Source: Lachnospiraceae bacterium (lineage in GTDB: Bacteria; Bacillota; Clostridia; Lachnospirales; Lachnospiraceae). Taken from it: a stretch of DNA of 64,000 nt. The notes beneath the pieces are model-generated. The model saw nothing but the letters and a program-made list of their open reading frames with translations, ran no database searches and had not been told where the DNA came from. The stretch spans positions 25,842-89,841 of the forward strand of contig JAAWAR010000028.1 in the NCBI GenBank assembly GCA_022792295.1, read 5' to 3'. The translations under genes and the position numbers were made by a program. Below, one piece after another: positions 21,311-40,471 of this stretch. The first letter of the stretch is position 1. Each line of letters starts with the position of its first letter.

Positions 21311-21781
21311 TTATTTCCGATTTTCAAGCAAATCAGCATTTTCTTTTTCCTTCATCCGAAACCATTTATCGAGCTTAGCAAGCGCCCGGATCAAAAGACG
21401 CAGTTCGCTCTTTTCCATGCCTTCCATAATCGCTTTGATTAGCTCGCTGTGGAACCGCGCATGGTGTTCATAGGCTTTTTTCCCTTTTTCCGAAAGAGAG
21501 ATATAAACAACCCGTCTGTCCTCCTGCCCCCGCTCTCTGACCACATAGCCTTTTTTTACCAGGCTGTTCATGGCAATCGTCAGTGTTCCCACTGTCACAG
21601 AGAGCTCTCTGGCGATCGAGGTCATATTTTTGGGCGCGCCGGCGCCAATCGCCTCCATCACATGCATGTCGTTATTTGTAATATCTTTGAATTCCTGTGT
21701 GATAATTGCCTTCTGTTCGATGTCCATGACATCGCGGAACAGACGCACCAGTACCTCATTCAGTATCTCGTAATCGTTCAA
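21311..21781 (-). CDS. MarR family transcriptional regulator
   Basis: wHTH with VKKGYVVRERGQEDRRVVYISLSEKGKK. Confidence 0.9.
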   Translation of the reverse strand: MNDYEILNEVLVRLFRDVMDIEQKAIITQEFKDITNNDMHVMEAIGAGAPKNMTSIARELSVTVGTLTIAMNSLVKKGYVVRERGQEDRRVVYISLSEKGKKAYEHHARFHSELIKAIMEGMEKSELRLLIRALAKLDKWFRMKEKENADLLENRK

Positions 21782-22476: not shown

Positions 22477-22833
22477 ATGTCTGTCTTGTTTATCGAATAC
22501 CCCGCCTGCTCAACCTGCAAGAAAGCCAAAAGCTGGCTTGACGCACACAAGATCTCCTACACAGACCGCCATATCAAGGAGAACAATCCCGCCAAAGAGG
22601 AACTCTCCATGTGGCTTAAAAAAAGTGGTCTGCCGCTTAAACGCTTTTTTAATACCAGCGGCCTGCTCTACAAGTCCATGAATCTTAAAGAAAAGCTCCC
22701 TGCACTTTCAGAGGAGGAGGCGCTTTCACTGCTTGCCACAGACGGTATGCTCGTAAAACGCCCCCTCATCGTCGCAGAGGATTTTGTACTCGTTGGCTTT
22801 AAAGAAGCAGAGTGGGAGGAAAAGCTGGGTTAA
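22477..22833 (+). CDS. ArsC/Spx-family reductase-like protein
   Basis: YPACSTCKKAKSWL, LKRFFNTSGLLYKS, MLVKRPLIV. Confidence 0.92.
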   Translation: MSVLFIEYPACSTCKKAKSWLDAHKISYTDRHIKENNPAKEELSMWLKKSGLPLKRFFNTSGLLYKSMNLKEKLPALSEEEALSLLATDGMLVKRPLIVAEDFVLVGFKEAEWEEKLG

Positions 22834-22850
22834 GAAACCCGGCTTTTTTT
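22821..22850. terminator. Convergent terminator containing both overlapping stop codons
   Basis: AAGCTGGGTT-AAGA-AACCCGGCTTTTTTT. Confidence 0.8.
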
Positions 22851-23762
22851 CTTTTTCCGGCCGGCCAGGCCCCATAACGCCGCCACTGCAAGCAGCCCTG
22901 CAAAAAAGCCGATGCCAAGCCTTACGACTGTCAGATGCGTTGTCAGCCACTGGAGAATGCGATCTGCAAGGGGCAGGGGCACTTCCCTTTCCTGCTTGGC
23001 CTCCGTCTGCAAAGGAACGGCCTGCGCCCGGGCTTTTTCTGCCTTTTGCACACTTTCTTTTGTTTCCTCCTCTGCCGCCTCCTCATAGATCCCGATGTAC
23101 TGTTTGCCGCGGATTTCCGGCGTCATGACCTGCCCTCCGTATTTTACCTCCACATTCCGCATCAGTTTTGCGCCTTTCGCCAGGGCGTCTCTGAATAATA
23201 CCCCTTCTTTCTCGTAAGGCGGGCCATCCCAGTCCACCGTTTCTACCCGGTAACAGTCCAGGGGAAGCTTTAGCCATGCAAGAAGTTCCTCCCCGTAATC
23301 CAAAAGCGGCACATCTGCCGGAATCTCTGTATCGCCGAGCAGATAGCTTTCTGCATCGTAGTCCGCCACCGTAAGCGGGAATGAAAAATCCTCTGACCAT
23401 GCCGCTCCCCTTTCTATCATTTCAAGCCTGGGAACCTCCCGTTCAAATGTGATCTCTGCTGTTTCATCTGTAATCGAGATCCTGGCCGTATCCGGCGGCT
23501 GCTCCTTCCCCTCCAGAAAAAAAGATACATTTGCCGAGGCATAAGTTGGTTCACTCGGTTTGGTTGCGTTTCTTATCCTGGTAGAAACCAGACGATAAGT
23601 CTTTCCCTCCTGTACGAGCTCCTCCTTTGGCCTGTACGCCTCGCCGCCGTCCGTAAAAACCGGGCTCTCCCAGGTCAGTCCGGACAGGGAACCGGCGCCT
23701 AAAAGCGCCGGAAGAAAAAATGCCAAAAACCCTGCTGCCTTCCAAAAGACTCTATCTCTCAT
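22830..23762 (-). CDS. Secreted protein with C-terminal TM anchor, partner of the giant adhesin
   Basis: Signal peptide, C-terminal TM plus KKKKSR; strong RBS AAGGAGG; overlaps the giant ORF by 11 nt. Confidence 0.7.
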   Translation of the reverse strand: MRDRVFWKAAGFLAFFLPALLGAGSLSGLTWESPVFTDGGEAYRPKEELVQEGKTYRLVSTRIRNATKPSEPTYASANVSFFLEGKEQPPDTARISITDETAEITFEREVPRLEMIERGAAWSEDFSFPLTVADYDAESYLLGDTEIPADVPLLDYGEELLAWLKLPLDCYRVETVDWDGPPYEKEGVLFRDALAKGAKLMRNVEVKYGGQVMTPEIRGKQYIGIYEEAAEEETKESVQKAEKARAQAVPLQTEAKQEREVPLPLADRILQWLTTHLTVVRLGIGFFAGLLAVAALWGLAGRKKKKSRVS

Positions 23763-26700
23763 CCCTTTTCCTCCTTGTCAGCGCCAGGCCTAAAAGCATG
23801 GCGGTGCTTACGGCCAGGCCAAGCAAATATGTCCCCGGCTGACGGTCGTCTCCGGTCTTTGGAAAGCGGAAATACTTTCTGCCCTCCTGCTTTAAACGCA
23901 AAATCCCTTCTCCCTTCTTGTCCGTCTGATAGGAAGCGAGGATTCGGCCCACTCTCCTCTCCTCCTGCGGTTTGGGCTCCTCAGGTTTTATCCGTACGCA
24001 TATCGTTTTGGGGGGATAGTGCTTGGGCTTATCATCCGGTTTGGGGGGAACTGGCTCCGATTCAGGTTCGGGCTTTGGTTCCTCCGGTTTTGGTTTTTGG
24101 GGCCCAGGCTCCGGCTCTTTGGGGATTTCCTTCTTCTTATCCTCCATTACAACCTGCTCGATCTCTCCGTATTCCGATACGGTAAACGAGATTGCCTCCG
24201 CCGTCTCATAGCCAGCCGGTGCCAGCTTCTCCGTCAGCGTATACCGCTCTCCCGCTTTCAGCCTCGCCTCAAACACATGTGGGCTGTCTCCCGAGATCCA
24301 TTGCTCTATAATCGTTCCATCTGCCTCCTGCAGCATAAGGCTGGCCCCGCTAAGTTCCTCACCGGTTGTCATGTCCGTTTTGCGGATCTCGACCTGCGTT
24401 TCCCGGTTTCTCAAATCGGTCTGAATCAACTCTCCGTTTTCATGAATAGCAAGCGATACCTTCGCTGTCTGAAGGCGGCTTCCGTCGGAAAGCCACAGCA
24501 TTTCCTCCAAAAGAAACGTGGTGCCCGGTGCAAACAGGAGATCTCCATCTGCCTTTCTTCGGTTCTCAATCCGATATTCTGTGAGGGTTTTGGGGTTATC
24601 CCAATAAAGAAGCGCCTTTCCATCACAGGTTTTCAGTGCAAATTGATGTTTGACAGGAAGGCGCCCCAAAAAGCGGACATTCCCATCCTCCCCAAACCTG
24701 AGCCGGAAGGTTTTTCGTCCCGTGGGAAGCACACACCCATCTGAAAACTCTGTCTGCTCGCACAAAGTAAGAACTTCCCCTTCCCTGGCGGTTTTAGCGG
24801 TGATTGGCCATTCTCCCCCGGTTCCCTGCCATTTCGCCAGCTCCTCGCCTTCTTTTAAAAGCGTATAGTGCATGCGGACCGCCGACCGGCCGCTGACGGC
24901 AAGCGCCTGGATTCCCTCTTTTCCTTCCTCATACACGGCCCGGATCGTCTGTGACTGGTCTGTGATGTGGAGAATTCTCCTGCCGTCCCAAGATATGCTG
25001 AACCGGACCGGCACCGCCAGGGCATATCCGTCAGGCACTTTTTCCTCTACCAAAAAATACGTCCTTCCGGCCGCGAGCGTCCCCACGGCCCGATGCGGCC
25101 TTTCCCCAGAAATCCAGCTCTCCACCGCAGATTCCTCCATAATAAAGTGACCGTCTTCTGCCCGTGCCGGATAGATGGAAAGCCTTGCGCCCTCCACGAA
25201 ATGCCCAGTTTTAAAGCTGCTTTTTGAAAACAAAAATTCCGTCTTCTCATTTTCTGCCGTGATCGTACAGATAGGCTTGTCTTTGTCCGGCTCATCAAAC
25301 CGTACTCTCCATCGGTCCCGGCTCAGACGATAGCCCTTTGGCGGGCTGACCTCTTGTACCTCATATGTATCGTACACACAGCCTCCATTTTCATCCAGCT
25401 CTCCTGCCGGTAGCCCTTTGATTACCGCCGTTCCGGTCTCATCGGTAACCGCTCGGACACGTTCTCCTGTCCGCAGGTTTTTTGCTTCGAACCATGCCCC
25501 GCAAAGTCTTTTGTCCTTTTGCGCGCGGTCGCTCTTTTTAATCACAAGCTCTCCCTCTGGGAGCTTTTGTTTTTTCTTTTTATTTTCCATTTCATACCTC
25601 TGCACATGTCCTGTCTCCGTTACCCGTAAAAGTTTTGGGGCCGCCGTATCGTAGCCGGGAGGCGTCCCGGTCTCCACAAGCGCATATAACCCCGGAGGGA
25701 TTCTGTCGATCCTGTGCACACCGTTTGCCGTATCATAGCGGACTGCCGCCGGATGAACCTTACAAAAATTTTCCTTATAGCCAAACTGATAGGCAAACGA
25801 GGTCCTTGGCAGCCCGTTCGTGTCAAGTCCTGCGCGGCCGTCATGCCTCACGGCCGTGATCCGGATCGTCTCCTTTTCCTCCGTCTCCCAAAGCTGCGTT
25901 ACAATCTGTCCGTTGCCGGCCGTATGCGACTCTTTCTGCACGGCATGCCGTTTGACTGCTGTCTTTCCATGCCCTTCTGTCCAGGAAAGTTCATGGAAGC
26001 GGTCCTCATATTCTGCAAACATTGCCTCATACGCATTTGTCATGCCAGGAATATAGCCAGATAAATCCGCGGAATCCCAGCTATCAATCAGGTCTGCGAC
26101 CTCATAGCAAAAGCTCCCGTCAGAATTGAGCACAGCCGGATACAAAGAAAGTTCTGCACAGGCCCCGGATAAAAGCGCCTGCTTTTTTTGCCCCTTCCTT
26201 TCATACTTAAAGATCTCCAGCTTTGTATGGTCGTCTTTAAGCACAAAGGACTGCAGCTTTTCTGTCGGCTTGATGGTAATCTCCATAGAGGCCAAAAGAT
26301 ACCCGGCCGGTGCTTCAAGCTCCTCTAAAATATAATCTCCTGCAGGGATTCCCTCAAAATATTTAGGTCTTCCATCGGTTATCCACAATCCGACCATAGA
26401 AATTGGAGAGTTATCCACTGGGTTTTCCACAATCCACTCAGCAGGGGTTTCCTCCTTTTTGACAAAATAATATCCTTTCGGATATGTCTTAAAGTCCATG
26501 CTCTGGATTCGCTCTGCACGGTACAGTGCCAGCTTCGTGCCGGAAAGCTGGCGGTTTGTGTATGCCCCGCTTCCCTCACTGCTCTGATGCACGCCGGCTC
26601 CTGGCTCCTCTCCATCAACCGTGTTCCGGTAATCCCTGGCCCCGTCTGTCTTGGAAATTTCAACCTTGATTTTTTCATCCGCCATGGCAGTTCTCTGCAC

Positions 26701-29700
26701 GGCCGTCTGTTCCTTTACACAGACGGCCACCGGCATCGCCTTGACATAACCCGCCGGAGCCTTAAGCTCCTCCATGATGTAGCAGCCCGGCATCACACGC
26801 CTTAGCAGGTCGGCCTGCCCATCCGTCTGTCCGTTGTCCGTACCATCCTGCGGGGTTGTTTCTCCGGAGCTCCAGAGATTCGGGAGCAGGTATGCTTCTC
26901 CGAGACGGTGCCACAAAAGCGTATCCTTCGCATACAGCGCCTCGTGATCCCGTATCGTATAGGCCGCCCGGTTATACAGTTCCAAAAGATCGTCATATTG
27001 ATACCGAACATAGTCCCCATCCCGGTCATATATGTTTTTTCCTTTTTCATAGTGATCCTGGCTTTTTTTGTAATATCGGATCAGTCCAAATGCATCATAG
27101 ACCGGCTGCATCCGCTTTTCAAAGCGTTTTTCGGCGGCGTTCCAGCTTCCTGTAAGATAGGCACCCTCTGTCCCGGCATAAATTTCTCCCGGACGTCCTG
27201 TGAGAATCTTCTCTCTTGCAAGCACAGTACCATCCGCCTTATAAGAAACCGTTACCGGCCATACGTAATACCGCGTTTCTTCGGGAGCTTTTGGTCCGGA
27301 TTTTTCTATATAGGCAAGGCCCGTGTATCCGTCCACCTGGGCATCCCGGCATAACGCCTCATCCAAATGGTAGAGGATAGATGCCTCGTCTAACTTCTTA
27401 AACGCTTTCGCCCCGCTGTCGTAAACCAGCTCTGAAAAATCGCCGCCACAGATTTCAAAGACAGGCCTCCCGCCTCTTAATGCGTAGACAGAATCTGTGT
27501 CTGCCGTGATTTTTATCCTTTTTCCTTCTCTGTCATATCCGAACAGGCTGCCCTGCCGGTCGGTTTCAAGCACCCTCAGCCCGCCGAGATCATAAAACAG
27601 GACCGGTGTGTCCTTACGTTCTGTCGTCCGCACCTTCCAGCGTCCGTCCCTTTGCAAAAACTCCGTCTTCTGCCCGGCAAAGCCTTCCTTTACAAGGATC
27701 TCCTTTACATTTCCGTTACGGTCTCTGTTTACCTCCACCCCCTCAAACGTATAATCTTCGCCATCGCCGCCTGCCCGCACTTCAATGGCCTCATACAGCG
27801 CCATCATAGCGCCTGCCACATAGCGGTTTTCGTCCCCGGCCGTCCCAAGTGTTTTGGAAATGTAGCCATAGCCCTGAAACACGCCGTTTTCGTATACAAG
27901 CTCTACGCGCTCTCCCGCTGCCTTACGGTTTTCCAGATATTCGAGCGTCCCCTTTTTCCAGCCAAAGCCCTGGTACTGTCCTGCGCTGTTGTAGGCGAGC
28001 TCCAGATTTTCCAAGCCGTATTCGATTCCCAGAAGGGTGATTGTCCCCTCTACGCGTCCCGATACCTTCATTCCCCGAACCGTGTCCCCGACCTTCCGTT
28101 TGGACACCTCCAGGCTTGTCGCCGTATCATTCACATAGATGCGTGCAGTCTCTGTCCTCTCCTTTTGCCCGTTTCCTTCGGCTTTACTTGTATAGGGATA
28201 GCAGACTGCCGCTGCCTTTTCTTCCCCGCTGTCCGGATAATAAGACACCGCATCGCTGTAGATCTCGACGGGGATGGGCCCGCTCCTTCTATATCCGGCT
28301 GGAGTTTTAAGCTCTGCCAACACGTAGACACCGGCCTTCACCGGATTTGGGGTCTCAAGATAGCCGGCTGTCTGCACAATCTTGCCGCCTTCCTCATTGA
28401 CCACGGTGGACAGCGCCTCAAACTCTCCCGTCCGGACGCCCTTTTCGTCCGAAAAGATTACGACATCCTTCTCCCGGCAGATCGGCGTACCGGCCGCCAC
28501 TGTGCCGGAAAAAAGCTCCCCGGGTCCCATGAACGGCAGGCCTCTTGCAAACGGAGCAATGTGTTCTGCCCCCATCGCCTCCAAAAATTCCCTGCTTCCT
28601 GCGATCCTGGTCGGCCTGCCGTATCTTTTTACTGAGCCGTCCCCGTCTCTCCTCTCGTCGCGCTCCGCCCTATAAAGCGCAAATACCGCGTCATCGTGCA
28701 GGATCGGCTCTCCGGTCTCTGCATCCAGTTTTTCGATCCGCAGCCTCGCCTGATATGGACGGTTCAAAAAACTCTGCTCTGCAAAGCCCGTGTGCGCTGC
28801 CGGTCCCTCACTTTCGGTCTCCGGCACGCTCCACGGCACAAGCATCGGCGCGTATCGTCTGTCATATGCCGTCTGCATTCCGTTCATGGCAAAGACATTA
28901 TCTTTCAGGTACAGGCCATATCCGCTTTCCAGCCCTCCTTTCCCGTCCGGATACGGAACATTGTCTTCAACCGAGGCGTTTTCGCTTCTTAAAACATAGT
29001 GATAATACTCCGCAACCTTTGGATTCCGATATGGTCTGCAATGCTCCTTTTCCTTCTCCCTGTCCAGCCCATAGGGGTAGAGTTCAAAGTCCCCGTCATG
29101 ACTGTGTGCCAGAATCACATACTCTCTGAGCGGTTCCGTATGCGTATTTGCCCACTCCTCATTAAAACGGATCCAATATTTTTTTGCCAGCTCATTGGGT
29201 GTCGTTTCTTTTTTATATTGATAAAAAGAGGAATACATTTCCGACTCTGTTTCATACACGCAGGGAAGTGAAAGCTCCTTTGGCGTGTCAATGGCATAAT
29301 GTCTGTTGGGGAAATCCCCGTATTCCGGCTTATACGGCTGCTGCTCGGAAAGGACGTATTCTCCGTAAGGCAGATACTGCGATATGCCATATGCATATTC
29401 TGTCTTTCCCTCCTTCTTAAACTGCCCCGCAGCAAGAGTCGAACAATCCTGATCGAGCCCTCCTCCCTCCTCGCTGTCCCATAAAATTTCGTACAGAGAA
29501 TCCAGATCATAGCAAAAAAACGGCGCCAAATACTCCTCCGCCTTCAAAATCGCCGCATACAGCGCCTGATCGTACAACTCGTCTGCGTACGCCGTATCGG
29601 AGCCGTCCCCGATTTTTTTCTTCAGCTTGTCCGTTTCCGTCTCCAGATACCAGGTAACTGCAAACTGCCGCACGGCATCCGAGCGCTTTGCGTTTTCCTC

Positions 29701-32700
29701 TGCCGCGGCAGAGGAATTGATCGTATTTCGGATCCCGCTGAATCGGCCGCAGGCAAACGGCTTAAACGACGTATTCATAATCTCCCCGTCGTTGTGCCAC
29801 CGGTCCGTATCTGCCGTTTTGATCGCGTCAAAAAACTTCTCGTAGTTATAGCTCTCCACGAGCCGCGAAGTCCCCGCTTCATCCTCTGCGCGGCACAAGA
29901 CCGTCTCTAAGAGCCTGCGTCCCGTCTTCTTCGTATACAGTCTGGGAACCAGCTCCGGGAAAGCCTCACAAGCGGCCTTCCCATCAAGCAAGATCCCATT
30001 TTTATCCGTCCAGAGAATCATCCCGTCCGGGTCACAGTATAACCGTTCCAAATTGGATTTCAGATAAACCTTAAAACGGAAATTGTCCATTGCCTCTCCA
30101 TCCGATAGCATCTTTTTTACCTTTATTTTCTGCTTGATCGGCCGTTCCAGAAGCTGCAGCGGGAACCTCCCTGTCTCTCCGTCCTCACTTATGCGGGTCT
30201 GTCCACGGTAGGAAAGCGTCTTTTCTGCGATATACGTGTCTGCCGAATTTGCCCCCTCTCCTGTCGAGACAGAAAGTGCCGCGCCCGCAAATCGAAGGAG
30301 ATATTCTGCGAAACCGATCTCCTCTTTGGCCCTGTAGTCAGCCGTATTCCCCGCCCCTAAAGACACAATATCCGCTTCGGTCAGCCGCACCTTTTTTTGC
30401 GGCAGCTTTGCCGTAAACCGCAGCGTAAGGCTTCCTCCGCTGTCTGAAAAGTCCTGTCCGAAGCTGTCCGTCCCTTCGGTCTCCACATGCAATCTATAGA
30501 CCCCTGTTTTTTTATCATAAACGGCCCCTTCTAGCAAAACGTCCTTTTCCACAAGCTCTGTCTCTGTCGTAATCTCAATTTTGTCCACTGCCTCCGTCTC
30601 CAAAATCCGGTACTGGTTTTTCGGATCGCCCAACAGATAGTCGATGATCTCCTCCCCGGCTTTATGGTAGACCATTACCCTATGCCGGATAGCCTCCAAA
30701 ACGCCTTGTTCGCTTACCAGCATGGCCGGTGTAAGTGTTGCGTCGATATAATAGCGTTTATCGCTTCCGCTTCCCATATAATAGCGGCGTTCTACCTCAT
30801 AACGGTATCTTCCCTCCGCCTGATAGGCCTGATACACCCATCTAAGCTCTGCCGGATTTTCATACACCGCGTAAATCCGATCCACCTCCAGGCTCGCACT
30901 TTTCTCCTTTCTTATAAAGAAACGGCGGCTGTCTCTGACAGAGGCACCTGCGTAGAGGACGATTCGGTAATGATCGCCTTCCCTTGTAATAGAGTCTATT
31001 CCTCCAAAGCTCCATTCCGGATTCTCCCTATACCATTCCAGAATCTTTGCAATTAGCTCTCCGTTTGTGCTCCCTGGCGTGATCCCAGACGGTGTCAGCT
31101 CTGCTGTCGCCGCTCCGTAAACCGTCCTTAATGCAGGCTCTAAAGGCGCGGTCGTCTGCCCGTAAATGTCAGGCTCCCCTTTTCTTACTCCGCGGCTGTA
31201 TACCGGTGCATCCCACTGCGAGCAGATGCCATCCGCCGTAACCGGTGTCTCATAGCCGTTTCGATTTAACACCTCCTCTACCGCCGCTTTGACAAAGCAA
31301 AGGCTTTCCGGCTCCAAAAGACTCTCCATAAGAAGCTCCTCTTTGGCGTCGGGCTCCAGATCCAAAAGCTGCATCCTCTTTTTCTCCGGAATCTGCAACG
31401 CCCTTATGATCTGGTCCTCCATGCGGCTTGCCGGAACCTGCCCCGTTATCTTTCCGTCTGTTCCGTATTCAGGTTCGTATCGAACATGGCTTCTGCCGCT
31501 TTCGGCCCGTTTCCAGACCGGATTTCCTTCCGGATCCGTAACCGGCCGCTCCTCGCTTCCTGTCACATGAGGTCCTGTCACACTGGCCTCTCCGCTGTCT
31601 GTCCTGTAAAAGCTTGTCCCCTCCGGGAATCCGGAAAAGATGAGTTCATAGCCCTCTGTTCCTGTTGAGGTGACAAAAAACGGGAGTTCATCGTAGCCCC
31701 TCCCTCCTCCGGCTTCCCCTTCCATGGAGGAGGAAATATCGGAAAGAGAGAGCACTGCGGTTCCCCTGGCCCCGGCTGCCTCAGGGGTCTTAAAGCCGGT
31801 CCCGTAATTTGTACGCTTTTTTGAAAGCCCGTTCACGGAAAGCTCAAATCCCTCGCTTCGGGAAAGCTCCTTCACATAATAGCTTCCGAGAAGCAGTGGC
31901 CGTCCAATCCAGCAGTTTCCGTTTCTTTCCTGATTTTCCTGATACCGGTTTATCGGCCCTTTTCCGTTAAAATCCGGCCGCTTTTTGATCTCTCCCGTCT
32001 CGTAATCATAGGTCACACCGGGCTCTCTTGTACAGGCAAGGAAGTCCGCGTTGCCGTCCTCGTCCGTAGCGGCAACCGCTACGAGATCATTTTTGTGGTA
32101 TACAATGCCAGTGTTGCTTAGTCTTCCCCTACTTTCAAGCTCCGCATCCGGATGGATGAGATCCTCTGCCGCAAAAAGCCCGTAAACCGCTCCCTCAAGC
32201 GTGGCATCCCCTTCGGCCTCCCCGTATGCGGTATAGGTGTCGCTCTCCTTTCTGTATAGATCCAGATCTCTTTTATTGATATGAAGCCGTCCTTCCGTCC
32301 GGTGGTCGCGGACATGCCAGGCATCCCCGCAGTCTTCCTTCCCGCTGCAGTGAGAAAACGTTCCCGATTGACCTTTCTTCAGATGCCGCTTTCCGTCTAA
32401 AGAAGCCCCGGCCAGATAGCCCTGGAAATCTTCCAGACTTCCGCCAAACGCCCACTCATTGTCGTCCGGCTCTGTCTCATCCGAAAACGCCGGCTTAAAC
32501 TGAAAAAGTCGTCTCTGTCTGACAGGCAGTTTCGCCTCCTCCCCCGCATTGGAGGCTGTCGCCCTTTTGACCCTGCTTTTTGCATTGGAAGCTGTCTCCT
32601 TTGCAGTCTGCCTTTTTGCATCGGAGGCCGTCGCCGGCTCCGTGTTTTTTTTGCTATTTTCCGTATCGGAAGCTGGTTTTTGCCATCCCGTCTTCCAAAC

Positions 32701-34755
32701 GCCGCGTTCGGACGTTACAGTGCTCTTTTTTATCTCCTGACCCCCTTCGGCCAGATAAAACGCAAGAACCCCGGCCAAATGTCCGCCACCCGGTCCACTG
32801 TTTTTTATAAGAGCGGTTCTTATGCTTTGACGCTGTCTGCGTTCTTCCTCGGTATTCCCTGTATACCACACATTTTCCGTGATCTGGCTGCTGGCTCCTG
32901 CGGCAAAGACTGCCTCGGCCCCTGCCTCGGAGGAATTTGTTGTCACCAGCTCAATCGGCTTATCATCCGCATGAAAACCGTGGAGAATATATCCCGGTCT
33001 TGCCTGTATCTCTTTCCAGGTATAGGTGAACCTAAGACGGATAAATTTCTCATACGTTTCCTCACAGTCCGCCCTACAGCCTGAAGCCTCAAATGCCTTG
33101 GTGCTCTCAGCGCCTTCCCCGCCGTATCCTCCTTTGGACGGACTTCCGCTTTCCAAAACTTCCGAGACAAGCTCTGGCGCATCCTCGTCGGCCAGCCAGT
33201 GAAAATGTGTCCCGCCGCTTTGGGCCTTTTCACAGGAGTCCAAAAGCTCCAGCCATTTCCCTGCCGCTTCCCGATTCGCATCTTTTACCTGCTCTGCAGA
33301 CTCTCCCTCCGGTTCTTCTTCCTCGTCCGCCTCCTCGGACTCCTCCTTTCCCCACTCCGGCAGCGGATGGCCGTCACAGTACGTCTTTGCATACGTGTAG
33401 CTTCGCGTATCCGTGTGGGTAATCTCTCCCTTCACATCCGTCGTTCCCTCGGAAAATACCTGAAAGCCGGTCCAGGGGGTAAAGCTTAAATTCTCCTTCA
33501 CAAGTCCTGCTGCCGCCTCGCTTTTACTTAAGGAATCCATGTCTTCAAACCGTTCGTACAAATAAAACTGGCTGCCCTTTAAGGGCTTTTCTGTTTCGTC
33601 GTCAAATTTCTTTAACCGCACATGATAATTTGCCTGAAACGTTTCCTCGTGCCGGAAAATCTGAAACTGCAGCTTTGGCTTTGTTTTCCCATGCCCCGGC
33701 GGCTCCCATTCGCTGTCCCCCTCCTGGCTGATGACAATATAAAACACCTGGTCGGACGGCGCAATTCGGATGTCCGCCTTATAAAGCCTCTGATGAGCCG
33801 GCGCATTGATGCAGGCCTTAAAATCCATCCATTCGTGAAGATAATCATCGCTCCAGCTCCCTTCCGTGTACCAGCCGGAGCCGCCGCGCATGGTAATTTT
33901 ATAGCGCACCGTCGTCTTATTGTATTTTTCTTCTTCACTCATCGTGCTGCCCACCGCATTTTCATTGGCGAGCGCCGAGCCGTTATTATGGATTCTGATG
34001 GAATCCCCGCTCCAGGTCACCTCATATAGGTTCTCACCCATGACCGATTTGGCGATGTTTTTATCCTGTGAAGCGTCCAGCCAGCCTACGTTTCCGCCGG
34101 TAGAGCCGTTGTCCCAGACGCTCTGTGGCTCGATCTTTGCAATATCGCGGATAAACTCGCTTCCCAGCTTAAACTCCGTATCCAGGGCTCCCGGCCCGTC
34201 AGAAAAGGGCAATACCTGAAACGGCACTGCCTTTTCCTCCGAGGTCGCCTCGCTGATCTCCTGCGGCGCTTCCTTTCCTTTGGCCGCTCCCTCTGCGGCC
34301 GCCTGTTCCATGGCCGAAACCGCACGTCTCTCGATCTCCTCATTGTCTGCCACCCAGGCGAATTTTGTTCCTGTGTCATCCTTTATGTACTTGACTGTAT
34401 TCGGTCCGGAGACTGTGGATGCAAGCTGCGCATACAGATTTGGATCGTACTTTTTCGCCGCTTCTTTGAGTGCCGCCCAGTTGGCAGGATAGCCCCAGAA
34501 CAGACGCCTGGCCTGCACGTCTGTGAGCGGCGCCGGCAGCGTATCGTATTTATAAGTATCGTAGCGGTCTGCCGCCCTCCAGCTTTTCCCTCCATCCAGG
34601 CAGTAAAACGGAGCCGTCGATTTCTGCGGCCATACATCCGAAGCATGCGCCTTCATAGGAAACGGCACACGCATCCAAAGTGCTGCCAGCACCACTGCCA
34701 GGATGCCGGCCACCGGCCGTTTCTTCCCTGCTATCAATTTCTCCACAGCCTTCAT
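23752..34755 (-). CDS. Giant (~3667 aa) SpaA/Cna-B isopeptide-domain cell-wall adhesin with LPXTG-like signal (FPKTGD)
   Basis: Signal peptide from MKAVEKL; about 9-10 K...E-box modules (e.g. VEIRKTDMTTGEEL...YTLTEKLAPAGYETAE); proline-rich stalk; FPKTGD-TM-RRKR C-terminus; RBS at start. Confidence 0.9.
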   Translation of the reverse strand: MKAVEKLIAGKKRPVAGILAVVLAALWMRVPFPMKAHASDVWPQKSTAPFYCLDGGKSWRAADRYDTYKYDTLPAPLTDVQARRLFWGYPANWAALKEAAKKYDPNLYAQLASTVSGPNTVKYIKDDTGTKFAWVADNEEIERRAVSAMEQAAAEGAAKGKEAPQEISEATSEEKAVPFQVLPFSDGPGALDTEFKLGSEFIRDIAKIEPQSVWDNGSTGGNVGWLDASQDKNIAKSVMGENLYEVTWSGDSIRIHNNGSALANENAVGSTMSEEEKYNKTTVRYKITMRGGSGWYTEGSWSDDYLHEWMDFKACINAPAHQRLYKADIRIAPSDQVFYIVISQEGDSEWEPPGHGKTKPKLQFQIFRHEETFQANYHVRLKKFDDETEKPLKGSQFYLYERFEDMDSLSKSEAAAGLVKENLSFTPWTGFQVFSEGTTDVKGEITHTDTRSYTYAKTYCDGHPLPEWGKEESEEADEEEEPEGESAEQVKDANREAAGKWLELLDSCEKAQSGGTHFHWLADEDAPELVSEVLESGSPSKGGYGGEGAESTKAFEASGCRADCEETYEKFIRLRFTYTWKEIQARPGYILHGFHADDKPIELVTTNSSEAGAEAVFAAGASSQITENVWYTGNTEEERRQRQSIRTALIKNSGPGGGHLAGVLAFYLAEGGQEIKKSTVTSERGVWKTGWQKPASDTENSKKNTEPATASDAKRQTAKETASNAKSRVKRATASNAGEEAKLPVRQRRLFQFKPAFSDETEPDDNEWAFGGSLEDFQGYLAGASLDGKRHLKKGQSGTFSHCSGKEDCGDAWHVRDHRTEGRLHINKRDLDLYRKESDTYTAYGEAEGDATLEGAVYGLFAAEDLIHPDAELESRGRLSNTGIVYHKNDLVAVAATDEDGNADFLACTREPGVTYDYETGEIKKRPDFNGKGPINRYQENQERNGNCWIGRPLLLGSYYVKELSRSEGFELSVNGLSKKRTNYGTGFKTPEAAGARGTAVLSLSDISSSMEGEAGGGRGYDELPFFVTSTGTEGYELIFSGFPEGTSFYRTDSGEASVTGPHVTGSEERPVTDPEGNPVWKRAESGRSHVRYEPEYGTDGKITGQVPASRMEDQIIRALQIPEKKRMQLLDLEPDAKEELLMESLLEPESLCFVKAAVEEVLNRNGYETPVTADGICSQWDAPVYSRGVRKGEPDIYGQTTAPLEPALRTVYGAATAELTPSGITPGSTNGELIAKILEWYRENPEWSFGGIDSITREGDHYRIVLYAGASVRDSRRFFIRKEKSASLEVDRIYAVYENPAELRWVYQAYQAEGRYRYEVERRYYMGSGSDKRYYIDATLTPAMLVSEQGVLEAIRHRVMVYHKAGEEIIDYLLGDPKNQYRILETEAVDKIEITTETELVEKDVLLEGAVYDKKTGVYRLHVETEGTDSFGQDFSDSGGSLTLRFTAKLPQKKVRLTEADIVSLGAGNTADYRAKEEIGFAEYLLRFAGAALSVSTGEGANSADTYIAEKTLSYRGQTRISEDGETGRFPLQLLERPIKQKIKVKKMLSDGEAMDNFRFKVYLKSNLERLYCDPDGMILWTDKNGILLDGKAACEAFPELVPRLYTKKTGRRLLETVLCRAEDEAGTSRLVESYNYEKFFDAIKTADTDRWHNDGEIMNTSFKPFACGRFSGIRNTINSSAAAEENAKRSDAVRQFAVTWYLETETDKLKKKIGDGSDTAYADELYDQALYAAILKAEEYLAPFFCYDLDSLYEILWDSEEGGGLDQDCSTLAAGQFKKEGKTEYAYGISQYLPYGEYVLSEQQPYKPEYGDFPNRHYAIDTPKELSLPCVYETESEMYSSFYQYKKETTPNELAKKYWIRFNEEWANTHTEPLREYVILAHSHDGDFELYPYGLDREKEKEHCRPYRNPKVAEYYHYVLRSENASVEDNVPYPDGKGGLESGYGLYLKDNVFAMNGMQTAYDRRYAPMLVPWSVPETESEGPAAHTGFAEQSFLNRPYQARLRIEKLDAETGEPILHDDAVFALYRAERDERRDGDGSVKRYGRPTRIAGSREFLEAMGAEHIAPFARGLPFMGPGELFSGTVAAGTPICREKDVVIFSDEKGVRTGEFEALSTVVNEEGGKIVQTAGYLETPNPVKAGVYVLAELKTPAGYRRSGPIPVEIYSDAVSYYPDSGEEKAAAVCYPYTSKAEGNGQKERTETARIYVNDTATSLEVSKRKVGDTVRGMKVSGRVEGTITLLGIEYGLENLELAYNSAGQYQGFGWKKGTLEYLENRKAAGERVELVYENGVFQGYGYISKTLGTAGDENRYVAGAMMALYEAIEVRAGGDGEDYTFEGVEVNRDRNGNVKEILVKEGFAGQKTEFLQRDGRWKVRTTERKDTPVLFYDLGGLRVLETDRQGSLFGYDREGKRIKITADTDSVYALRGGRPVFEICGGDFSELVYDSGAKAFKKLDEASILYHLDEALCRDAQVDGYTGLAYIEKSGPKAPEETRYYVWPVTVSYKADGTVLAREKILTGRPGEIYAGTEGAYLTGSWNAAEKRFEKRMQPVYDAFGLIRYYKKSQDHYEKGKNIYDRDGDYVRYQYDDLLELYNRAAYTIRDHEALYAKDTLLWHRLGEAYLLPNLWSSGETTPQDGTDNGQTDGQADLLRRVMPGCYIMEELKAPAGYVKAMPVAVCVKEQTAVQRTAMADEKIKVEISKTDGARDYRNTVDGEEPGAGVHQSSEGSGAYTNRQLSGTKLALYRAERIQSMDFKTYPKGYYFVKKEETPAEWIVENPVDNSPISMVGLWITDGRPKYFEGIPAGDYILEELEAPAGYLLASMEITIKPTEKLQSFVLKDDHTKLEIFKYERKGQKKQALLSGACAELSLYPAVLNSDGSFCYEVADLIDSWDSADLSGYIPGMTNAYEAMFAEYEDRFHELSWTEGHGKTAVKRHAVQKESHTAGNGQIVTQLWETEEKETIRITAVRHDGRAGLDTNGLPRTSFAYQFGYKENFCKVHPAAVRYDTANGVHRIDRIPPGLYALVETGTPPGYDTAAPKLLRVTETGHVQRYEMENKKKKQKLPEGELVIKKSDRAQKDKRLCGAWFEAKNLRTGERVRAVTDETGTAVIKGLPAGELDENGGCVYDTYEVQEVSPPKGYRLSRDRWRVRFDEPDKDKPICTITAENEKTEFLFSKSSFKTGHFVEGARLSIYPARAEDGHFIMEESAVESWISGERPHRAVGTLAAGRTYFLVEEKVPDGYALAVPVRFSISWDGRRILHITDQSQTIRAVYEEGKEGIQALAVSGRSAVRMHYTLLKEGEELAKWQGTGGEWPITAKTAREGEVLTLCEQTEFSDGCVLPTGRKTFRLRFGEDGNVRFLGRLPVKHQFALKTCDGKALLYWDNPKTLTEYRIENRRKADGDLLFAPGTTFLLEEMLWLSDGSRLQTAKVSLAIHENGELIQTDLRNRETQVEIRKTDMTTGEELSGASLMLQEADGTIIEQWISGDSPHVFEARLKAGERYTLTEKLAPAGYETAEAISFTVSEYGEIEQVVMEDKKKEIPKEPEPGPQKPKPEEPKPEPESEPVPPKPDDKPKHYPPKTICVRIKPEEPKPQEERRVGRILASYQTDKKGEGILRLKQEGRKYFRFPKTGDDRQPGTYLLGLAVSTAMLLGLALTRRKRDER
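32546..32677 (-). repeat. Short degenerate tandem repeat encoding (A)TAS(N/D)A-type units in the giant adhesin
   Basis: Four related ~18-nt copies at 32546, 32582, 32618 and 32663 (gcattggaggctgtcgcc-like); peptide TASDAKRQTAKETASNAKSRVKRATASNAGE. Confidence 0.7.
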
Positions 34756-34798
34756 ACCTTTCTCCTTTAATCTTCTATTCCTGGCTCGGCCAGACGGC

Positions 34799-37700
34799 TC
34801 AAATCCCTTCTTTACCGGGCGTTGTTTCCTGCGTCTGGACAACACCGTCAAGCGTCCAGGCTCCGGAACCATCTACGGTATATCCATCCGGTGTCACCGT
34901 GTCGGAATACATATATCCATCCGGTTTGGCCAGGCAGTAGCATCTGCCGTCCACCCAGCGCCAGCCTGTCGCCATCTGCCCGCCGCTCTCAAAATAATAC
35001 CAGCGTCCTCCTATAAGATGCCAGCCCTTGTACATGCGCCCCAGGCTTCCGTCCGCTTTGTCGTGCAGGTAATACCAAAAGGCCCCTTTCGAATCGAAGT
35101 ACCAGCCCGTATGCAGCTTCCCGTCATCGTCAAACCGAAACCAGGAGGCGCTTTCCTGCCCAGCCCCTGCATAGGGATTGTGGATATAAGCCCATTCCTT
35201 CGCATACGTTCGCCCTCCCTCTGTAAACAGCCAGTTTCCGGCTCCGTCCTGTACCCAAGTCCCCATGACCGCGCCCTTTGGCGTCTCTGCCAGCACTCTT
35301 GTCGTCCCTGATGTGGTTATCCCGAGCGAGGAGCGTTTTGCGGCCGAGCCTTGCGAGCCTCCTGAGCTGCCCGTGGAATAGGTCTTATTTACAAGCCTGA
35401 ACTTTAAAAGCACCTCTGCCGTCTTCGATGCCTGGCCTGCTCTTGCCGTTACCTGCACTCTTTGCTCTGCGGTATACGGATATTTTTTTATGGCCTCTGT
35501 AATCCAGGCAGCGTCTGTAATCGGCACAAAAAGTCCGTCATCCGTCACGGAGAGTATGTCCGTATCCGTCTCCCACTCTACCTTTTTCTTTGCTTCTTTG
35601 GGATAAACGGCCGCATTCAATTTTTGCCCGCCCGCCCCGCTCCAGGTAAGCGTAGGTTTCCCCGCCGGTCCGGTCTTTGTAAGCAGCATGTCAAACTCCA
35701 GTGCCTTCTGATTAAGCTCCACACGTTCCGGAAGGATTTCTGTCTCGTCTATCGTAGAAAAACGGATAACCGCTTCACAGAAAGCTGTCTGCCGGTTCCC
35801 CAGTGTATCCTTTGCCGTCACAGTCACTTCTGCTTTCCGTTCTCCTGCCCCCGTGCGCTTTGTATATGGATTTTCCTTATAAACCGCGTCATCGACAGCC
35901 ATAATATCGCGAATCCACTTAGTATCTTTAACGACATGGAGGCTGGCATTTTTATAGTCTGCCTCTGCCTCCCCGTTTCCATAGCCTCCTGCCTTTACCG
36001 TGAGCAGATTGGTGTCATCCACTGTCCAGGAAACATCCTTTTTATCAAAATAATCCGGTGAAAATTCGGCCTTCAAGGTCTGCGGAGGCGAGATGAGAAC
36101 CGTCTCCCTCGGATTTTTCCTGTCTCCCGTAAGCCGCCTGGTGACTGTAAACTCCAGCGCCGTTTTGTCAAGCGATGCCCCTTCTACGGCCACATGCGTC
36201 CGGTCTTTGATCTGGAAAGTCACGAGAATCCGGCAGTTTGCCGCAAGCGGCTTTCCTTCAAAGCTCGCGGCCGGACGCGTCCTGGCGGTAAGGACAGCCA
36301 CGCCTCCTTGTATCCCTCCGCCGTAAATCGTATTTGGAATCGTATACCGGTATTCTTTGTCCGCCTGCTCCCTTTCCAGCCGCTCCTCAATATCCTTAAA
36401 AAAATCGGCCTCCAGATTCAGCTCGATGGAGGCGCTTTTTTCCGTATATCCGGACGCATCCTCGTCCCCATTGGCCTTCAAAAAAATCAGATCGGCATCG
36501 TCAACACTCCAGGCCGTTCTCTTGTCGGCTACGTCGTTGTTTTCTCCGATCACCGATTCGATCCGCACCTCCTGCACCTCGGTTCCTTCCTCCAGCGCCC
36601 CGTTGAGATAACGCGCAATCAGTTTTCCGGACTGCTCTCTGACCTCTGTGACAATGGAGGGCGACCGTCTGTCTCCGCTTCTCTCCTGAACAACATGAAA
36701 GGAAATTTCCTCCGGTACAGTCCCAATCTTTGCCGCCACCTTTTTATACACGGCTGAAACCTCCGTATCGTTTTCTGGCATCACAAAACGATAGCTGCCG
36801 CCGGTCTGATACGACATAGCGATGCGCTTGCCGGCCGCATCGCTATACGTTGGCGTCCCATCCATCTGATACTTTTCCTCCTCCGTATTCCGCGGCGCGG
36901 TTGTTACCGTGACCGTATCCCCGGCGGCAACGGCTCCGCGGTGCGATTTATCCAGATCGTGGCTGTAGGCAGATGAGCCTCTTGCCGTAAGCGTCGCCAC
37001 GTCATAATAATTCTGTACATTGGCTGCCGTGTCGATCTGAAGAACGGAGACCAGATAGCCGCGAACCGGACGCCCTACCGCACTGGGTGCAAAATGATCC
37101 GGGGAGCAGAGGAACATTTTTACCGCGTCCTCCGTGTCAATGACATGGAGAACCCCTTCCTCCAGTTCTTCGTAAAAATATCGTCCCTCCTCGGGTTTGC
37201 TCCCCCGTCCCTGAACCAACGTATAAAAATTATCTCCGACATGCCAGAACCCGATGTGATCCTCATAGGCAAACTGATTGTCCTCCAAAATTCCGCAGCC
37301 GCAGACACCGGCCGCAAGCTTCTCCTCGCGGTCCGTAAAAAGATAGGCCAGATCAGCGCCTGTCTCCGTCCCGTATCGAAAATGAAACCCTGTATCATGT
37401 GTACCGATGAAGCTTCCTTCATGGGCCGCACTTCCTAACCCCGAGCTCGCAATCTCCCCCTCAAACCGGGCCACCTTCAGCCTACCGGAGGCATATTTTC
37501 CACTCACGCCTCCGATTGACTGCGAGCCGGCGCCTCCGATGGTCCCCATTACGTGTACGTTAAAGATATCCGTATCGTTTTGAAAGCCGGCAATCCCGCC
37601 GACATAGCCGCCTCCCTGGATTCTTGCGCTTTTCGTGCTCCCTGTATTGACGGTGCAGTCTACGAGCAGAGACCCGGATGCGTTTCCCACGATGCCCCCT

Positions 37701-38638
37701 GTATACGTCTCCCTCTTTGTACTGCTGTCGATCGCCACATGATCTGCCGTACAGTTTTCTGCCACGCTTTTGTCTGTGAGGATGCCCACCACCCCGCCGG
37801 CCGTTCCTTCCGTTTTCAACGTTCCGCTCACGGTAACTCTGTGGATTATGCTGTTTTCTGCCGTCCCGGCAAGAATCCCGGCCTCTCCTTTTGCGGTGAT
37901 GACATTTTCAGGCTTCACGGTCAGATCTGTCACCGTTGCTCCCTTTAATGCCCCGAACAGGCCAACCTGCGTCCAGTTCGGCCTATACATGCGGAAATTG
38001 GACACCGTCTTCCCATTCCCGTTAAACGATCCGCAAAACGGAGTTGCCCTTTTTGCCTCCCGCTCCTCCTCCGTTCGGTAAAAGCCGATTGGCATCCACG
38101 CGATGCCCTCCAAATCAATGTCTCTTGTCAATTCGAAATGGGCTCCCGTATAATCACCGGGAAAACTCCCGGCACCCTCCTCAACCACCATCCCAAGCGA
38201 CGCCAGCTCGGAAAGCCCCATAAGCTCGCCCTTCGTTGAAATCTGGTAAGGCCGTTCCTCTGTCCCGTCTCCGGCTGTCCCGTCAAGGAAGCGCATATCT
38301 CCTATCCAGCCTTCCCACAGTTCTCCTGTCCCCTGAAAGCGAAGATCGTAGGTGGAGGCAGGCATCGGAAGGAGCGTGGCGTTTGAACCTGTTTTTATCA
38401 GAGCATTGGCGGCCGTGGCTTTAAAAGGCAGCCGGACATTCTTTTCTTCCATTCGGCCGTTTCCCGGTATGGCCGTACCGGTGACGGCTACACCGATGCG
38501 AAGCGAAACCCTTCCAAATTCTCTTGCCGTCGCTTCTGCCAGGGCCTGGACCGGCAGCAAAAATGCCGCGAGGGAGCAGAGCCCGGCCGCCATCGCGCAG
38601 CGGGCCGGCCATTTTCTTTTCTTTGTTCTTTTTGCCAT
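34799..38638 (-). CDS. Secreted surface protein: GLUG repeats, Ig-like repeats and C-terminal cell-wall (choline-binding type) repeats
   Basis: Signal peptide; GGVVGILTDKSVAENC / GGIVGNASGSLLVDCTV GLUG pattern; GWYFDSKGAFWYYLHDKADG...GWHLIGGRWYYFESGGQMATGW repeats. Confidence 0.85.
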   Translation of the reverse strand: MAKRTKKRKWPARCAMAAGLCSLAAFLLPVQALAEATAREFGRVSLRIGVAVTGTAIPGNGRMEEKNVRLPFKATAANALIKTGSNATLLPMPASTYDLRFQGTGELWEGWIGDMRFLDGTAGDGTEERPYQISTKGELMGLSELASLGMVVEEGAGSFPGDYTGAHFELTRDIDLEGIAWMPIGFYRTEEEREAKRATPFCGSFNGNGKTVSNFRMYRPNWTQVGLFGALKGATVTDLTVKPENVITAKGEAGILAGTAENSIIHRVTVSGTLKTEGTAGGVVGILTDKSVAENCTADHVAIDSSTKRETYTGGIVGNASGSLLVDCTVNTGSTKSARIQGGGYVGGIAGFQNDTDIFNVHVMGTIGGAGSQSIGGVSGKYASGRLKVARFEGEIASSGLGSAAHEGSFIGTHDTGFHFRYGTETGADLAYLFTDREEKLAAGVCGCGILEDNQFAYEDHIGFWHVGDNFYTLVQGRGSKPEEGRYFYEELEEGVLHVIDTEDAVKMFLCSPDHFAPSAVGRPVRGYLVSVLQIDTAANVQNYYDVATLTARGSSAYSHDLDKSHRGAVAAGDTVTVTTAPRNTEEEKYQMDGTPTYSDAAGKRIAMSYQTGGSYRFVMPENDTEVSAVYKKVAAKIGTVPEEISFHVVQERSGDRRSPSIVTEVREQSGKLIARYLNGALEEGTEVQEVRIESVIGENNDVADKRTAWSVDDADLIFLKANGDEDASGYTEKSASIELNLEADFFKDIEERLEREQADKEYRYTIPNTIYGGGIQGGVAVLTARTRPAASFEGKPLAANCRILVTFQIKDRTHVAVEGASLDKTALEFTVTRRLTGDRKNPRETVLISPPQTLKAEFSPDYFDKKDVSWTVDDTNLLTVKAGGYGNGEAEADYKNASLHVVKDTKWIRDIMAVDDAVYKENPYTKRTGAGERKAEVTVTAKDTLGNRQTAFCEAVIRFSTIDETEILPERVELNQKALEFDMLLTKTGPAGKPTLTWSGAGGQKLNAAVYPKEAKKKVEWETDTDILSVTDDGLFVPITDAAWITEAIKKYPYTAEQRVQVTARAGQASKTAEVLLKFRLVNKTYSTGSSGGSQGSAAKRSSLGITTSGTTRVLAETPKGAVMGTWVQDGAGNWLFTEGGRTYAKEWAYIHNPYAGAGQESASWFRFDDDGKLHTGWYFDSKGAFWYYLHDKADGSLGRMYKGWHLIGGRWYYFESGGQMATGWRWVDGRCYCLAKPDGYMYSDTVTPDGYTVDGSGAWTLDGVVQTQETTPGKEGI

Positions 38639-38658: not shown

Positions 38659-40188
38659 TTATGCCTGCGGCAGGCAGAACGCAGGCCTTAGCCCTATGCT
38701 CCCGTCGTCCACTCGTGCAGGCCGGATGCAGCCTGCCTTCAGGTCAACTGCGTAAACCAGCTTTCCATAAGAAAACAGGCCTTGTGCATCCTCCTCATAT
38801 ACGGGTGTACGCAGCCAGTAGCCGCGGTCAAACGAGCTGTTTCCCCCATCCGGTGTCCAAAGCTCCTTCCGGTATCGGAGCGCTTCCTCTACAGACAGAA
38901 GAAAAATCGGATCTGTCATGGACTGGAACAAAAGCTCGCAACAAAGCAGACGGCTGTCCGCAAATTCCTCGAAGCTTCCTTCCTCCGTCCTTCCCAAAAA
39001 CGCAGTGTTTACCCCCGTAGGGACCGCAAGCAGTCCGCTGTCCGTGTCCGCCTGTTTTAACAGCCACTCGCGGGCCTTCGAAGTTTTATAATTACTGGTT
39101 TCGCCAAATGGCAGAATTTTTCTCTGGGTGTTTGTACTGTCGATATCAGAACGTATGACAGTCTCGCATAAGAACAATGCGCTTTTTTGATAATTAGAAT
39201 CTGCATCCTTATAATCGTCGTCTATGCATCGGAAGCGGTATGGGATTTTTCCTATCCTTCGGATCTGTATATCCCCTGTAGACCAGCTCCTTTTTTCGGC
39301 CGGCTCTCCCGTCTCCGGTTTTTTTAAAATAAGGCCAGGACGAAGTTCCATGCCTTCCTTCCACTCCTCCTCCGGAATCGGAAGCCCAAGAGCATCTAAA
39401 AGTTCGGTCCCCAGACAGGCACGGTATGCAGAAATCCCGTTGGCAAAATCCGCCCGGAGCCACCACCGAAGCCGTTCCTTAAGCGTCCCGAAACGTTCGG
39501 AGGCCGATTCGGCAGCCACGGCCTTTGGAATTACTCCTTCAAGCGCGTAGAGCATCCCGCCCTTGTAGTCTTCCTCCACACAGACAAACGGCAGCCGTTC
39601 CTCACTTGTTCCAAAACGGTAGAGTACCGAAATTCGGTCGCCCCTTTTTTGTGAATCAAAGCGGGTTCCGCAGCGGTCACATACGGAATCCCCTTCTGCA
39701 TCCGTATGGCCAAGGCTTCCCAAAAGAGCCTGCCGCTCCTCGCCGCAAAAGCGGCAGAAGATCCGTTCTCGCCCGTCTCGCAGGCAGTCCGCCTGCTGCA
39801 GCTTCTCGTTCTCCCACACATGCGGACAGGTTTCCTTTAAAAGCCTTTTCTCAACCCCGATGCGATTCGTCATATAGACGTGACCGGCCTCCTTTTTTTC
39901 CGTAAGCTTCGTATTGGAAATGTTGACAATGCCGGGAAACATCTGCGCGATCACCAGCGTATCCGGCTCAAAATCCTCTGCGGTTACATAGAATTCATGC
40001 CGGCCGGGCTCTCGTATCGACGAGACCACTTCCATGAGAAGGCGGCTGCATTCCTCTTTCTCTGAAACCGTATACGTCTGTTTACCGGCCAGATTTCCTG
40101 CCGCGTAAGACCGCATCGTCATTTGGCTGCCGGCCAGGACTGTCAAAATTCCTGCCGCTGCCAAAAGCCGTCCTGTTCTTCTTTTCAT
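38659..40188 (-). CDS. Secreted protein with Cys-pair zinc-ribbon-like segment and DUF6273-like C-terminus
   Basis: Signal peptide from MKRRTGRLL; CPHVW...CRFCGEERQALLGSLGH...CDRCG; ...GYWLRTPVYE...GSIGLRPAFCLP; RBS GGAGG. Confidence 0.75.
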   Translation of the reverse strand: MKRRTGRLLAAAGILTVLAGSQMTMRSYAAGNLAGKQTYTVSEKEECSRLLMEVVSSIREPGRHEFYVTAEDFEPDTLVIAQMFPGIVNISNTKLTEKKEAGHVYMTNRIGVEKRLLKETCPHVWENEKLQQADCLRDGRERIFCRFCGEERQALLGSLGHTDAEGDSVCDRCGTRFDSQKRGDRISVLYRFGTSEERLPFVCVEEDYKGGMLYALEGVIPKAVAAESASERFGTLKERLRWWLRADFANGISAYRACLGTELLDALGLPIPEEEWKEGMELRPGLILKKPETGEPAEKRSWSTGDIQIRRIGKIPYRFRCIDDDYKDADSNYQKSALFLCETVIRSDIDSTNTQRKILPFGETSNYKTSKAREWLLKQADTDSGLLAVPTGVNTAFLGRTEEGSFEEFADSRLLCCELLFQSMTDPIFLLSVEEALRYRKELWTPDGGNSSFDRGYWLRTPVYEEDAQGLFSYGKLVYAVDLKAGCIRPARVDDGSIGLRPAFCLPQA

Positions 40189-40288
40189 TGTATCCTCCAT
40201 GGTTTTTCCGGCTGATCCTGCCGGGTAAGAATCCGAATTCCGTTTGACAGATGGAGAGAGAGTCCCTCCATAGAATGTATAAACTATA

Positions 40289-40314
40289 GCATGGACAAGT
40301 ATAAAAGTCCATGC
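40289..40314. promoter_or_regulatory. Candidate operator dyad spanning the -10 box
   Basis: GCATGGAC-AAGTATAAAA-GTCCATGC, 8-bp perfect arms. Confidence 0.55.
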
Positions 40315-40326
40315 GTGATTTGTCAA
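40298..40326 (-). promoter_or_regulatory. Near-consensus sigma-A promoter of the surface operon
   Basis: TTGACA (40326-40321)-N17-TATACT (40303-40298) on the minus strand, ~110 nt upstream of the first start codon. Confidence 0.8.
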
Positions 40327-40471
40327 AAAATCCCCCCTCAAATGAGACACTTTGACGGTTTTACCATCCTGACTGACAAAAAAATTCGGCAGGATGACCA
40401 CTCCGGTCCCCTGCCGTTACTCGAGGATTCCCGTTCACTGACAAACCGCCATGCGGGAATCCAGATCACCA

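Follow-up and report, generated by a model that had tools for sequence, protein, structure and literature searches.

The CIRCE element, which is located before chaperone genes, reads TTAGCACTC-N9-GAGTGCTAA, i.e., has the geometry 9-N9-9. In the operator-promoters of the MerR family, the dyad lies between the -35 and -10 elements, and activation requires an overlong spacer of 19–20 bp. CIRCE is named as the element of HrcA in PMC9696931.

Here, we analyze a dyad with a similar geometry that is located in front of a giant surface protein operon of the Lachnospiraceae, in a window of 64,000 nucleotides (the whole stretch of DNA under study). In this window, it had been predicted that the operon is transcribed from a near-consensus promoter and that an operator with 8-bp arms is centered on the -10 box. 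Literature searches retrieved no account of either the operon or its promoter. Comparison with the orthologous promoters leads us to a modified form of the operator idea, which has moderate support. Specifically, with roughly even confidence, we interpret the region as a sigma-A promoter that carries a degenerate putative operator in its spacer, along with a conserved upstream site, and is dedicated to a single operon of the sortase type.

The surface operon and its surroundings

The operon consists of four genes, all on the minus strand. The first (38659..40188) encodes a secreted protein of 509 aa with a DUF6273 domain (Pfam) and has orthologs in the footprinted genomes; the second (34799..38638), assigned from Pfam and synteny, encodes a GLUG/choline-binding-repeat protein of 1279 aa. 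The third gene (23752..34872) encodes a giant surface protein of 3,706 aa that contains SpaA domains (Pfam SpaA, 1.4e-62) and has an FPKTG-type sorting signal at its end; its actual start is probably downstream of 34872. The product of the fourth gene (22830..23762), 310 aa long, contains hydrophobic segments at both the N-terminus and the C-terminus and produced no match against Pfam and NCBIfam. Genes 1–3 are found together in related genomes, and gene 4 is the next gene in all seven of those that were checked. A class-B-type sortase is encoded about 21 kb away from the surface operon (1464–2300, minus strand) and may be the anchoring enzyme of the giant SpaA protein.

The upstream neighbor of the operon is a peptidase S58 gene with a hairpin resembling a terminator behind it (CGGCAGG...CCTGCCG, then a T-run after two bases), so that the operon needs a promoter of its own. 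The leader of the operon contains another hairpin, CCGGC-N7-GCCGG (40208..40224, minus strand), just upstream of the Shine-Dalgarno sequence GGAGG (40198–40194). The five pairs of this hairpin are kept, wholly or mostly, in ten leaders, and one pair is changed on both sides; translational control is possible, although with so few pairs this pattern is suggestive only. A search of the leader against Rfam identified no family, with one below-threshold chance match of 9.4 bits.

Register of the conserved promoter

The promoter of the original prediction, TTGACA-17-TATACT (minus strand, 40326–40298), is present as described and matches the consensus in 11 of the 12 bases. A promoter scan detected a second, overlapping promoter-like site that is absent from that prediction, namely, TGGACT-17-TATAGT (minus strand, 40311–40283), with 9 of the 12 consensus bases and, additionally, the TG of an extended -10 element.

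The three genomes of the genus all have an ortholog of gene 1, as do 22 of 397 genomes of the family; genus-level searches for further orthologs yielded no new ones. From these, close orthologs with a clear start and upstream region were chosen, so that the footprint set comprises ten promoters, including that of the window, from ten Lachnospiraceae species that represent six genera. The closest ortholog, with 84% protein identity, comes from the sister genome, Lachnospiraceae bacterium C57_80_CC_BP (G001, locus L015). Over the 59 bp that lead up to the -35, the ten promoters can be aligned with just one gap, of 1 bp, in one genome (G002). All ten contain TGGAC-N18/19-TATANT, with the TACAAT variant in two; in other words, a -10 element of the pattern TA(T/C)ANT is universal and is located 17–18 bp away from a TGGACN -35 element. 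Of the extended -10 motif, the G is present in every promoter and the T in nine, with G002 retaining the G alone. Given that TGGAC and TATANT/TACAAT occur in all ten sequences, the promoter common to these species is TGGACN-N17/18-TATANT with an extended -10. In the window, the conserved -35 and -10 hexamers correspond to TGGACT (40306..40311, minus strand) and TATAGT (40283..40288, minus strand), respectively, the latter preceded by TG at 40291–40290; the +1 A predicted from this -10 is at about 40276 (minus strand).

The view that TTGACA-17-TATACT is the working promoter, with the dyad being an operator centered on its -10, draws on the 11 matching bases, the 17-bp spacing and the perfect dyad around TATACT (40298..40303, minus strand), the dyad center (40301.5) being 1 bp off that of the hexamer. 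However, TATACT is found in this genome only. The sister promoter, which is otherwise nearly identical, reads TTTTTGACAGATCGCGCATGGACTTTTATCCCCGGCCATGCTATAGTTTA, with TATCCC in place of TATACT and with CATGGAC and TGCTATAGT intact; in the remaining orthologs, this position is occupied by unrelated sequence without any -10-like hexamer, whereas the pair of TGGAC and the extended -10 is universal. We consider this view very unlikely. Because TATACT is not a -10 element in nine orthologs and TGGAC/TATANT is universal, the expected start shifts from about 40291 to about 40276; the promoter and start site first proposed are most likely off by 15 bp, with the conserved promoter located downstream. 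TTGACA-17-TATACT is probably an accidental overlap specific to this species, although it may fire weakly. Thus, the region with the promoter and the dyad is conserved and the proposed geometry holds in outline, but not in register: the dyad is situated between the -35 and the -10 rather than around a -10. More generally, the best consensus match in a single genome need not be the promoter; here, footprinting shifted the start by 15 bp.

Another possibility that we considered is an invertible promoter located between TTTGACAGAT and ATCTGTCAAA, a 10-nt inverted repeat that matches at 9 of 10 positions in the window and exactly in the sister genome. All ten promoters, however, have the same orientation, for which reason inversion was rejected; furthermore, the right-hand repeat is missing outside G000 and G001, the 65 bp between the arms are very short for inversion, and inverted repeats of similar size occur elsewhere in the same region. 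The probability of inversion appears to be negligible.

Partial conservation of the dyad and conservation of the upstream block

The dyad itself is exact, GCATGGAC-N10-GTCCATGC at 40289–40314, as originally predicted, and is found once in the window and, in agreement with a genome-wide search, once in the 2.8-Mb draft genome, where the second-best site has 2 mismatches. Nevertheless, a bare dyad of such size is not rare: the window contains 68 perfect inverted repeats with 8-bp arms and a spacer of 0–20, and at least one such dyad appears in 7.7% of the Markov shuffles of the 283-bp intergenic region. These numbers, together with the fact that the dyad is perfect in this genome only, would be compatible with a chance inverted repeat that has no function. 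What renders chance unlikely is the conservation of the left arm, which is nearly invariant across ten species, and the match of the right arm, which exceeds both the slid-register and the k-mer controls even when the window is left out.

Relative to the predicted start, the dyad fills the -35/-10 spacer of the conserved promoter (about -38 to -13), one arm spanning -38 to -31 and the other -20 to -13. The left, promoter-distal arm GCATGGAC (40307..40314, minus strand) contains the conserved TGGAC of the -35, and the right arm GTCCATGC (40289..40296, minus strand) ends in the TG of the extended -10 and adjoins the -10 hexamer. The left arm reads CATGGAC in nine of the ten orthologous promoters and AATGGAC in the tenth. 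The right arm is variable, and little of it is left in G002, G050 and G065; the column consensus over the ten sequences, GTCCATG, is the exact mirror of the left arm. With the TG of the extended -10 ignored and related pairs treated as one lineage (eight lineages altogether), the mirror bases GTCCA occupy 23 of the 40 cells at the dyad register, compared to 4.5–11.5 at ten slid registers. In a k-mer test, which includes few lineages and was devised after the window had been seen, 0.1% of all 5-mers equal this value; with the window and its sister excluded, GTCCA scores 18.5/35, which is matched by 0.2% of the 5-mers, and when the A is dropped as well, GTCC scores 13.5/28 against 7 expected, which is matched by 0.8% of the 4-mers. 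GTCCA is not a general trait of extended -10 sites, as judged from 103 such sites in related DNA. Given that the match of the right arm stays above the controls without the window and the sister, the symmetry appears to be older than this species, yet degenerate. Accordingly, the dyad is not lost outright among the homologous operons: the left half is nearly invariant, and the right half, although degenerate, scores above the controls.

The spacer of the dyad is 10 or 11, tracking the spacer of the promoter, which counts against a rigid operator with two sites; a single operator would not usually vary in this way, and the position of the right half may instead be coupled to that of the -10.

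Conservation is strongest upstream and at the -35. The conserved block TTTTTTGACAAATC (40317..40330, minus strand; consensus TTTTTGACRGATC) is located at about -54 to -41 from the predicted start, 3 nt (4 nt in G002) upstream of the region where the CATGGAC arm starts. Its columns keep a constant distance to the -35, with TTTT present in all ten sequences, A in nine and GATC in eight or nine. The ortholog alignment further reveals weaker conservation upstream of the block (40331..40365, minus strand; consensus AAAATCGGCGTAnTGCATAGTTTTnGnnGGGG), and the partly conserved 59-bp stretch has TTTTTGACRGATCNNNCATGGAC as its end. In three orthologs (G281, G230 and G065), part of this weaker region forms a terminator-like hairpin ahead of the T-run (z from -1.8 to -5.1), and G002 has a weaker candidate there; several other orthologs lack any hairpin. 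Because the hairpin is present in some orthologs only, a terminator role cannot account for the whole block; it would also leave the fixed-distance GACRGATC unexplained, and was rejected. We propose that the TTTTTGACRGATC block is a putative second protein site.

The same data can be read in terms of an activator-dependent promoter that has no operator, such that TTTTTGACRGATCNNNCATGGAC (-54 to -31) is a single site for an activator that extends into the -35, and the dyad arises merely because CATGGAC happens to face a CATGN extended -10 across the spacer. This scheme is in line with the prevalence of conservation upstream and at the -35 over that in the degenerate right half, as well as with the weakness of the -35 (TGGAC vs. 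TTGACA). Moreover, the core promoter by itself generates part of the symmetry: the TG is an extended -10 feature and CATG is self-complementary, so that a CATGN extended -10 accounts for four pairs of the dyad. Against this, the right-arm columns outside the extended -10 still mirror the left arm above the controls, and GTCC is not carried by extended -10 sites in general. We regard an activator alone as possible but doubtful.

Returning to the sigma-A promoter with an operator in its spacer, the conservation of the promoter register and the upstream block, the partial conservation of the dyad and the single occurrence of the element per genome are the observations from which we infer protein binding, repression, the role of the block and the start site. 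The four-gene operon would be transcribed from a sigma-A-type promoter composed of the -35 TGGACT, a 17-bp spacer and the extended -10 TG-C-TATAGT (40291–40283), with one half of the dyad overlapping the -35 and the other half overlapping the extended -10. A DNA-binding protein positioned on the dyad would then cover both core elements and, most likely, block RNA polymerase, i.e., act as a repressor, whereas the TTTTTGACRGATC block would most likely be a second protein site that helps the weak -35.

A single site per genome and candidate regulators

In a search of the ten genomes with the block, the operon promoter was the best match in nine, and the other matches were scattered near-matches; the G002 promoter, with its 1-bp insertion, was detected by the sequence profile rather than by the block search. 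The exact block pattern was identified in four of 395 genomes, always at this operon. In one draw of 397 genomes of the family, the profile recovered nine orthologous promoters with 49–70 bits, the next match scoring 23 bits, and a profile search of another 396-genome draw, which overlaps the first, added no new site. The search for a regulon with the dyad, the block and the profile likewise detected no second convincing site: the full element is present once per genome, before this operon only. Weak profile matches in G375 (L101, about 1500–1550) and G035 (L102, about 1500–1573) combine ATGGAC, a partial mirror half and an extended -10 before unrelated genes; they may be due to chance and, having been selected by the model, are not independent evidence.

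The searches revealed no gene for a regulator in tight linkage with the operon. A linked regulator or a regulon of several sites is usual for repressor operators, though not essential; since each genome has only one site and lacks a linked regulator, no candidate protein emerges, which counts against the operator reading. The earlier statement that no regulator gene is adjacent holds for the direct neighbors; just beyond the operon, on its downstream side, there are genes for ArsC-family (22477–22830), Gate-domain (spmB-like), FabT-like MarR and phosphofructokinase proteins. The MarR gene (21311–21781, minus strand) scores 139 bits, under the 200-bit FabT cut-off, and is located between the spmB-like gene and the gene for a PPi-type phosphofructokinase, not with fab genes; the order spmB-like/MarR/phosphofructokinase after the surface operon is shared by several genera. 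Because the MarR gene is also found in genomes without a close operon, and in G281, which has the operon, is encoded on another contig, it is a regulator candidate by proximity only. We also considered whether this MarR protein acts on the FabT-type palindrome TTTGACNGTCAAA, but rejected the idea, as the window contains no above-chance match to it. In the spmB-like/MarR gap of G230 (L124), several near-identical repeats, CGCAGAGCGGTTATTATAACTCTGCG and CATCAAACCGTTATGTCCGGGAAGCGGACATAGCG, are located upstream of the MarR gene and resemble a small repeat element.

Tentatively, a dedicated, undescribed regulator that is encoded away from its target might control this one giant sortase-type operon in several genera of Lachnospiraceae. 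Its compound site would consist of the TTTTTGACRGATC block and the CATGGAC-N10/11-GTCCATG dyad that fills the promoter spacer. If so, the element (~50 bp, one site per genome) would provide a precise handle on the control of an operon that costs more than 5,000 codons of surface proteins in gut Lachnospiraceae, and could serve as bait for the regulator.

Comparison with known systems

Among the described systems, CIRCE/HrcA is similar in arm length and spacer, 8-N10-8 here compared to 9-N9-9. Identity with CIRCE was rejected given that TTAGCACTC-N9-GAGTGCTAA is not matched, the arms being GCATGGAC and GTCCATGC with a spacer of 10; furthermore, unlike CIRCE, this is a single site before a surface operon. 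With the operator-promoters of the MerR family, the element shares the location of the dyad between the -35 and the -10; the promoter spacer, however, measures 17 or 18 bp throughout the ten orthologs, not 19–20 bp, and a MerR-type arrangement was rejected as well (the literature was also searched for MerR spacing, but no paper was retrieved). Similarly to generic dyad operators between the -35 and the -10, the dyad overlaps both core elements, but differs from these in its degenerate right half-site and its spacing of 10 or 11.

The element also corresponds to the extended -10 promoters of sigma-A (sigma-70), which are defined by a TATAAT-like -10 preceded by TG (TGN-TATAAT) and a -35 at 16–18 bp. 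The orthologous promoters share these features, i.e., TATANT, the TG one base upstream (in nearly all of them), the 17/18-bp spacing and a -35 related to TTGACA. The difference is that the -35 reads TGGAC in every ortholog and is part of a conserved upstream block of more than 20 bp, which is absent from ordinary promoters. We regard this promoter region as one more, modest case of a type of regulatory region that is already well known.
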